This document shows positions 48,828 through 51,646 of a stretch of 64,000 bases of DNA, one piece after another. Position 1 is the stretch's first letter, and each line of letters opens with the position of its first letter. Source of the DNA: Ignavibacteria bacterium (GTDB lineage Bacteria; Bacteroidota; Ignavibacteria; Tepidaquicellales; OLB5); contig JAUQWQ010000158.1 of NCBI GenBank assembly GCA_030835085.1, positions 65,125-129,124 of the forward strand. The letters run 5' to 3'. A program made the translations under genes and the position numbers. Below the pieces are notes generated by a model. That model saw only the letters and a list, made by a program, of their open reading frames with translations, was not told the DNA's origin and ran no database searches.

Positions 48828-50408
48828 CTAATACTCGCCCCATACACCTCGAAGCGTGTTGGATATTTCGCCAATAGAACAATAACTTTCAACACATTTC
48901 AGAATATACGGCAGCAAGTTATCTGTTCCTTCAGCAGCATTTTTAAGCGCTTCAAGATCACGTTTCACTTCCTCGTTATTTCTTTCAGCTTTAACTTTTT
49001 TCAGTTTTTCAATCTGCTGTCTGCCTATCGCTTCATCAATATGCATCAGGTCAAGCTTTTCGGGGTGATCTTCATCAACAAACTTATTTACACCAACAAT
49101 TACACGCTCACCTGATTCAATTTCCTTCTCAAATTCATACGCACTTACTGCAATTTCATCCTGCTGATAATTAAGTTCAATGCATTTAACTGCCCCGCCC
49201 AGTTCATCAATTTTGTTCAGGTATGCCCATGCGCCTTTTTCTATCTGGTCTGTAAGATACTCAATGTAATATGAACCTGCAAATGCATCGACAGTATCCG
49301 CTATTCCGCTTTCATATGCAATTACCTGCTGGGTCCTTAAAGCTGTTGTTACTGAATCCTCAGTTGGAAGCGCAAGCGCTTCATCCTTTGAATTTGTGTG
49401 CAGTGACTGGCATCCGCCCATTACAGCACCCATTGCTTCTATGGTTGTACGGATAACGTTATTTTCAACCTGCTGAGCTGTGAGCGATGAACCCGCTGTC
49501 TGGCAGTGGAAACGAAGCATCATGCTTTTTTCACTCTTTGCATTAAAGCGTTCCTTCATTATCTTGGCATAAATTCTTCTTGCAGCGCGGTATTTTGCAA
49601 TTTCCTCAAGGAAGTTTATCTGCCCGTTGAAGAAGAATGAAAGCCGTGATGCGAATTTATCTACGTCAAGTCCCGCTTTTTGTGCTGATTCGATATAAGC
49701 GATAGCATCAGCCAAAGTGAATGCAACTTCCTGGATTGCATTACTGCCGGCTTCGCGGATATGGTACCCACTGATAGAAATAGTATTCCAGCTCGGAAGG
49801 TTCTGGTTACACCATGCGAATATATCGGTGATAAGTCTCATCGAATGTTTTGGCGGATAAATATATGTTCCCCTGGCGATGTATTCTTTAAGTACGTCAT
49901 TCTGTATTGTACCGCTTATTTTTTTCAGGTCAGCACCCTGTTTTTTGGCAATAGCAACATACATACAAAGCAGCACTGCTGCCGTTGCGTTGATCGTCAT
50001 GGAAGTAGTAATTTTATCCAGTGTGATACCGTCAAATAGTATTTCCATATCTTTGAGAGTATCTATGGCCACACCTACTTTTCCAATTTCGCCTTCGGCG
50101 ATTGGTTCATCACTATCATAGCCGATTTGCGTCGGCAGGTCAAAAGCAATACTTAGACCAGTTGTTCCCTGCTCCAGAAGAAATTTATACCGCTTGTTTG
50201 ATTCTTCTGCTGAGCCGAATCCGGCATACTGCCTCATTGTCCAGAACCTGCTGCGGTACATTTGCTCATGCACACCGCGGGTGAAGGGATATGAACCGGG
50301 ATCGCCTAACTTGGTCTTATATTCTTCAGTATTCTGGTTTATAAAAGCCGGGATCTCGATGCCTGAATCTGTAACGAATTTTGCTTTTCTATTCTTGAAT
50401 TCTTTCAT
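48828..50408 (-). CDS. Methylmalonyl-CoA mutase large subunit (catalytic domain only)
   Basis: 526 aa. Shows the acyl-CoA mutase barrel with [31 protein letters not shown] at the substrate end (the Tyr in MYRS matches the methylmalonyl-CoA-type position), [27 protein letters not shown] and [20 protein letters not shown]. It lacks the C-terminal B12-binding domain (no DxHxxG region), so it needs a separate small subunit, which is not in this window. Interconverts methylmalonyl-CoA and succinyl-CoA; related isobutyryl-CoA mutases cannot be fully excluded. Confidence 0.88.
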
Positions 50409-50534
50409 AATGATTCCAAATTTCCTTACGGGTATAATTCATAAATTTACATGACAAAAATAGGTAAAATAGCCCTAAAATAATATGATTAAGATTAGGT
50501 TTTAACTGTACTTATGAAATTGGTTTTTTGCAAC

Positions 50535-50567
50535 TGTTGTTTAAACAACAAAAAATCTCTATCTTTG
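50535..50567 (+). promoter_or_regulatory. Promoter with 16-bp palindromic operator
   Basis: Perfect Bacteroidota-type promoter: TTG at 50537-50539, 20 bp, TATCTTTG at 50560-50567. The TTG box is embedded in the perfect palindrome TGTTGTTTAAACAACA (50535-50550), so a dimeric repressor bound there would block the promoter. It drives the Cys-rich gene at 50606. Confidence 0.7.
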
Positions 50568-50605
50568 CCTTAATTATCCATAACATAAACCTAAAATTTA
50601 AAGCT

Positions 50606-51178
50606 ATGAACAAAAAATTTCTCGGAGCAGCGGCAATTGTTGTAATTTTTGCTTTCGGTTTTCTGTATCTTAACCAGTCTTATTTAATAGCTAATGATAA
50701 AGACGGCAAAGATTGCAGCAAAGAGTGCACTCAAAATGCAGGCAAAACAGGCTGCGATAAAACAGCGGCTACAGAAACATCCGGCGATAAATCAGGTTGT
50801 GATAAATCAAGCTGCGATAAATCAAAATGCGGCGATAATAATGTAAAAGCAGGCGGCGAGTATTCAAGCTACCAGTTTGTTACAGATAAGGTTACCTGCG
50901 AAGATTCAAAAGCTGACCTGCAGAAAAATATTTTAAGTATAGCAGGTGTAAAAGAAGTTAATTTCGGTTCAACCTGCAATGTTTCAAAAATGACAAGCGT
51001 TACAATAATGTATTCAGCAGGCGAAACCAGCGAAGAGAACATAGCTGCATCATTAAAAGAAAAGAACATGGATTGCTCAGGCAAATCAGGCTGCGATAAA
51101 GACGGTAAAAATTCCGGTGATGTAAATAAGGAATGCCCAGGCAAGAACAAAAAATCAAACTATTCAAAACAGCTGTAA
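50606..51178 (+). CDS. Cys-rich exported protein with heavy-metal-associated-like domain
   Basis: The ATG at 50606 (MNKKFLGAAAIVVIFAFGFLYL) is preferred; the track start at 50528 precedes the promoter. 190 aa. An N-terminal membrane anchor or signal is followed by a Cys/Lys/Asp-rich stretch (GCDK, SSCDKSKCGD). Then comes an HMA-like fold of about 70 residues (YQFVTDKVTCEDSKADLQ ... NIAASLKEKNMDC) in which the usual CxxC is reduced to one Cys. A second Cys cluster ends the protein. The repeated CDKS units look like metal ligands. Probably periplasmic metal binding or delivery; inference only. A strong terminator follows. Confidence 0.7.
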   Translation: MNKKFLGAAAIVVIFAFGFLYLNQSYLIANDKDGKDCSKECTQNAGKTGCDKTAATETSGDKSGCDKSSCDKSKCGDNNVKAGGEYSSYQFVTDKVTCEDSKADLQKNILSIAGVKEVNFGSTCNVSKMTSVTIMYSAGETSEENIAASLKEKNMDCSGKSGCDKDGKNSGDVNKECPGKNKKSNYSKQL

Positions 51179-51200: not shown

Positions 51201-51231
51201 AAAAGGAGATTGGAAACAATCTCCTTTTTTT
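51201..51231 (+). terminator. Terminator of the Cys-rich gene
   Basis: AAAAGGAGATTG-GAAA-CAATCTCCTTTT followed by more Ts; 12-bp stem with GAAA tetraloop. Confidence 0.95.
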
Positions 51232-51364
51232 ATATGCTGATTTAAACACAGATAACACTCATTGAGGAATGTACCTTTGTAGGCGTCGTGGCTTGCCCGA
51301 CGCCCTTTTTAATTCTCCCTGTTCAAGTGGGCTTATTCATTTTTCTACCACCACCTATTGTATA

Positions 51365-51421
51365 TCGAATAGCCGATTCGACTTTTGTTCAATTACCTGA
51401 ACTCGAACGGCGTTTCGAGTT
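51365..51421. repeat. Twin intergenic hairpins, second copy
   Basis: TCGAAT-AGCCG-ATTCGA (51365-51381) then AACTCGAA-CGGCG-TTTCGAGTT (51400-51421). Same order and core sequences as at 44696-44744. Confidence 0.65.
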
Positions 51422-51539: not shown

Positions 51540-51567
51540 TGTGTCCCAAACTCAAGTTTGGGACACA
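51540..51567. repeat. 13-bp palindrome with CCCAAACT core
   Basis: TGTGTCCCAAACT-CA-AGTTTGGGACACA. A sister element with the same inner core is at 51619-51646. Confidence 0.65.
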
Positions 51568-51618: not shown

Positions 51619-51646
51619 TGATTCCCAAACTGGAGTTTGGGAATCA
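51619..51646. repeat. 13-bp palindrome with CCCAAACT core, upstream of the aldehyde dehydrogenase
   Basis: TGATTCCCAAACT-GG-AGTTTGGGAATCA, 26 bp before the ATG of the dehydrogenase gene. It lies close enough to affect translation or act as an operator, but its similarity to 51540 suggests a mobile repeat. Confidence 0.6.

Follow-up and report, generated by a model that had tools for sequence, protein, structure and literature searches.

A cysteine-rich, HMA-like and probably exported protein of Ignavibacteria, with an ordinary Bacteroidota-type promoter and an unconserved palindrome

The closest described relative of the protein studied here is the HMA domain (PF00403), known from MerP, CopZ, CopP and ATP7A/ATP7B, which is its best match both by fold and by profile. 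The two share a beta-alpha-beta-beta-alpha core and a Cys at the first position of the CxxC motif. The differences are that our protein has a Ser in place of the second CxxC Cys, carries a Cys-bearing insertion between beta2 and beta3, lacks a clear fourth strand in its structure model, and scores under the Pfam cut-off. It also resembles the periplasmic MerP-type mercury-binding proteins, being small and HMA-like with an export-like N-terminus, and 1osd and 1afi are among its top Foldseek matches; however, no mer genes are adjacent to its gene, its CxxC is broken, and it has long, Cys-rich, disordered arms. Our literature searches returned nothing on Ignavibacteria together with HMA, and nothing relevant on third-Cys HMA sites. 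As for transcription, the consensus of Bacteroidota housekeeping sigma promoters is TTTG near -33 and TAnnTTTG at -7 (PMC7366714). The promoter of the gene fits this consensus with no notable difference, except that a palindrome peculiar to this genome is superimposed on it.

The features of the locus are listed below; the window designates the whole 64-kb stretch of DNA that was analysed.

50455-50504, minus strand: promoter region of the divergently transcribed methylmalonyl-CoA mutase gene (mcm), made of a -7-like box TATTTTTG (50455-50462) and a conserved upstream block
50485-50504: the conserved block, ATGATTAAGATTAGGTTTTA on the plus strand, 19 of its 20 positions invariant in 9 genomes
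50535-50550, no strand assigned: palindrome TGTTGTTTAAACAACA, which overlaps the -33 box and is not conserved
50537-50567, plus strand: Bacteroidota-type promoter, TTG (50537-50539), 20 nt, then TATCTTTG (50560-50567); boxes and spacing conserved
50606-51178, plus strand: gene for a 190-aa Cys-rich (11 Cys), HMA-like, probably exported protein, supported by the ORF (ATG at 50606, stop at 51178) and by orthologs
50606-50692, plus strand: N-terminal signal-like segment, residues 1-29, a basic MNKK followed by a hydrophobic stretch, with an invariant Ala29
50693-50860, plus strand: linker (residues 30-85) of low complexity, made of Cys/Lys/Asp/Ser and holding the CDKS/CDK units, modelled with low confidence, as for disorder
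50861-51076, plus strand: HMA-like domain, residues 86-157, beta-alpha-beta-beta-alpha by model, Foldseek and hhalign
50897-50899, plus strand: codon of Cys98 in loop 1, at the first-Cys position of CxxC by alignment to CDGCK of the sister family
50975-50977, plus strand: codon of Cys124, a residue kept by 20 of 20 orthologs and carried by the TCNVSKMT insertion between beta2 and beta3
51201-51235, plus strand: intrinsic terminator-like hairpin followed by a T-run, with a perfect 12-bp stem and a fold z-score of -3.85

Since the gene starts at 50606, positions 50535-50605 were taken as its upstream region. The TTG, the TATCTTTG -7 box and the spacing between them were kept in all 9 genus members that were aligned, the window genome included, and the orthologous promoters also conserve an A-run. 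The arrangement sought for a promoter of this type, a TTG or TTTG some 20 nt ahead of TAnnTTTG and preserved in orthologs, is therefore present at this gene.

The protein begins with a segment that is modelled as a helix over residues 8-22. Its Ala29 is invariant in 20 orthologs, and a probable cleavage after this residue (LIA/NDKDG) would fit a signal peptidase site. The CDKS and CDK units reported by the initial annotation are indeed found in the linker of the ORF. The linker length, the number of repeats and the Cys count (2 to 7) nevertheless differ between orthologs. Because the number of CDKS units varies and several orthologs have none, these repeats are not the conserved feature of the family. 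Across the 20 orthologs, which are 36-96% identical, the invariant residues are rather Cys37, Cys124 and Cys163, Cys98 being nearly so, and the C-terminal tail also carries Cys.

The likeness to HMA was examined at the levels of profile and structure. The Pfam HMA model gave 14.6 bits (E 0.045) with the window protein, below the cut-off of 24.8, and no Pfam or NCBIfam model passed its own cut-off with this protein. The best of 20 family members reached E 0.0038 with the same HMA model, and several members had weak CopZ or MerP profile matches. The structure model has a mean pLDDT of 58, with values of about 76-88 over most of the HMA-like domain. At this moderate confidence, it predicts the first five elements of the HMA fold. 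Its top Foldseek matches were mostly HMA domains (MerP, ATP7B, CopP, CsoZ), with E values of 0.017-0.1 and probabilities of 0.96-1.00. An hhalign comparison with five canonical HMA proteins encoded in the same genome gave 94%, and its alignment placed a five-residue insertion, the one bearing Cys124, between beta2 and beta3. A PDB search with the single sequence found no match, and with the family profile only weak matches, mostly to copper-chaperone and HMA chains.

Loop 1 of HMA metallochaperones holds a CxxC, where the window protein reads CEDS (TCEDSK, the second Cys position being Ser101), so that the initial description of an HMA-like domain missing one Cys of the motif is borne out. Because the score stays under the curated cut-off and the CxxC is incomplete, we do not class the protein as an HMA metallochaperone. 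In the host's family, the motif is CxxS in seven aligned genus members and CCxxM or CFxxM in the others, and it is intact (CDGC and the like) in the 7 aligned members of the sister family.

Orthologs were found in 12 of the 13 genomes of the genus, the window genome included (the exception is a genome that is 64% complete), as well as in 2 other genera of the host's family; the sister family has them in 9 genomes. Named records place the orthologs in Ignavibacteria, including 'Chlorobi bacterium OLB5'. When 294 genomes of the class were searched, strong matches were confined to the host's order, with one weak match in another family. By these sequence searches, the protein family is specific to one lineage, a single order of uncultured Ignavibacteria. 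Throughout the host's family, the gene lies between the divergent mcm and an aldehyde dehydrogenase gene. According to a reading of the translations, its neighbours in the sister family are an M48-type peptidase, an uncharacterised protein, a PP2C-like phosphatase and DnaB. No metal transporter, other metal gene or metalloregulator was found beside the gene in either family. At least 8 further HMA matches, all elsewhere in the window genome, exceed the Pfam cut-off, and canonical metal handling is therefore independent of this gene.

Two minor observations were made on these relatives. In G003 (OLB5), an apparent frameshift, either a sequencing error or a real break, divides the ortholog (L040:2185-2752) within its Cys-rich linker. 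In the sister family, the gene is immediately preceded by that of an uncharacterised protein of low complexity (L047:6132-6944, with counterparts in L048, L050, L051 and L053), about 250-305 aa long and with an N-terminal membrane segment, LSSVIVSLLAGFIYY.

The reading we favour, with moderate confidence, is that the gene encodes an exported, Cys-rich, HMA-like thiol protein that binds a soft metal or is redox-active, expressed from an ordinary promoter on which the palindrome is fortuitous. The gene, its promoter, the orthology, the domain resemblance, the conservation of Cys and the non-conservation of the palindrome are observed; export, metal binding, ligand geometry and constitutive expression are inferred. 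The gene would be transcribed, presumably constitutively, from its housekeeping-type Bacteroidota promoter, and the product would be a secreted or periplasmic protein with a folded HMA-like core held between disordered Cys/Lys/Asp/Ser-rich arms. Once exported, the thiols of Cys98 in loop 1, of Cys124 in the insertion and of the tail may bind or buffer a soft metal, for instance Cu(I); alternatively, the same thiols may form a redox-active site. The initial proposal of an exported, possibly metal-binding HMA-like protein is in this respect supported by the fold, the profile and the conserved Cys, with export being deduced from the N-terminus.

A more precise version of this proposal concerns the metal site itself. 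The HMA fold places the beta2-beta3 hairpin and the metal loop at one and the same end, and Cys124 could for this reason be a ligand. It may compensate, in the host's lineage, for the lost second Cys of CxxC. That a variant HMA site exists within this exported, Cys-rich family of one order of Ignavibacteria, an invariant Cys of the beta2-beta3 insertion having taken over from the lost second Cys of CxxC, is put forward tentatively. The relatives preserve a natural series, CxxC, CCxxM and CxxS; if the ligand has truly been relocated, these grades would allow a natural test of how HMA ligands move while the fold is retained.

Conversely, the HMA-like domain could be a degenerate scaffold that binds no metal, with Cys residues forming periplasmic disulfides in a structural role. 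The replacement of the second CxxC Cys, by Ser101 here and in the CCxxM or CFxxM of other members of the family, would agree with such a decay, as would the lack of any metal gene in the neighbourhood. We hold this to be doubtful, as Cys98, Cys124 and the Cys of the tail have been kept, and the sister family retains an intact CxxC.

The strongest conservation upstream of the gene is found in the ATGATTAAGATTAGGTTTTA block, and not in the palindrome. This block is located between the HMA-like gene and mcm (48828-50408, minus strand), two genes that remain neighbours, together with that of the aldehyde dehydrogenase, throughout the host's family. A co-regulation of both genes through the block 50485-50504, with the protein having a cell-envelope role unrelated to metals, could thus be envisaged, all the more so given its conservation across 9 genomes. 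On the minus strand, however, its AATCAT core is found 22 nt ahead of TATTTTTG in all nine genomes and in G011, and a like core with the same 22-nt spacing, counted by hand, precedes slightly altered -7-like boxes in G006, G010, G013 and G014, whereas the block ends some 55 nt short of the -7 box of the HMA-like gene. Moreover, the HMA-like gene is located elsewhere in the sister family. Co-regulation with mcm therefore appears improbable. Given the fixed spacing of the core to the mcm -7 box, the block most likely belongs to the mcm gene. It was also considered as an operator of the HMA-like gene itself, and rejected: no other copy exists in the window genome, and its core keeps to the spacing of the mcm -7 box. 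Upstream of mcm in the sister family, no such block was seen. Upstream of mcm, the block 50485-50504 may be the site of a regulator.

The palindrome that had drawn attention to the locus is real: TGTTGTTTAAACAACA is a perfect 16-bp palindrome, it encloses the -33 TTG, and the spacing of 20 nt to TATCTTTG is that of a consensus promoter, as first described. The 64-kb window contains 4 perfect palindromes of at least 16 bp, whereas sequences simulated with the same dinucleotide composition contained 2.08 on average and 5 at most; this is not clearly an excess over chance. In an AT-rich intergenic region of 197 bp such as this one, about 0.018 of them would be expected; the palindrome is therefore a mild coincidence for a single promoter, and unremarkable across all the promoters of the genome. 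The genome-wide search that the initial annotation had suggested, for copies upstream of other metal genes, yielded in 4.05 Mb this exact site alone, none at one mismatch and 2 further sites at two mismatches, fewer than the matches of a reversed control pattern. As a regulon motif, this unique palindrome was accordingly ruled out.

The palindrome was equally absent from all eight of the aligned orthologous promoters of the genus, the very outcome that the initial annotation had named as contradicting its proposal. Among the 16 aligned bases, where the window sequence forms 8 pairs out of 8, G005 forms 6, G002 and G001 form 4, G008 and G003 form 3, and G012, G009 and G004 form 2. G012 is the closest ortholog, with a protein 96% identical, and yet has only 2 of the 8 pairs. 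The best counterpart, TGTTGGATAAACAACA in G005, is two bases away from the palindrome, which means that a few changes suffice to make it. We conclude that the palindrome is probably the fortuitous outcome of a few base changes in one genome, and no operator, although comparison by itself could miss an operator specific to this species. More generally, a perfect palindrome on a promoter box in AT-rich DNA, when not conserved, is no evidence of an operator. Although a repressor bound at the palindrome would be well placed to block RNA polymerase, and the product is Cys-rich with an HMA-like domain, the initial proposal, a metal-inducible gene controlled by its own repressor at the -33 box, is highly improbable, with 8 of 8 same-genus promoters lacking the palindrome, a single copy in the genome, a number of palindromes in the window near chance, and no metal gene or neighbouring regulator linked to it.

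Other small palindromes are present downstream. Between the HMA-like and the aldehyde dehydrogenase genes, positions 51540-51567 and 51619-51646 hold short, dispersed palindromes with the form CCCAAACTNNAGTTTGGG. This form has 24 exact copies in the genome, compared to 0 for a control pattern, and by their sequence these palindromes look like REP-type elements. Further small palindromes lie at 51365-51381 (TCGAATAGCCGATTCGA) and 51400-51421 (AACTCGAA...TTCGAGTT), and similar ones, TCGAATCAGCGATTCGA and CTCGAAACGCCGTTTCGAG, are found 3′ of the orthologous gene in relatives.
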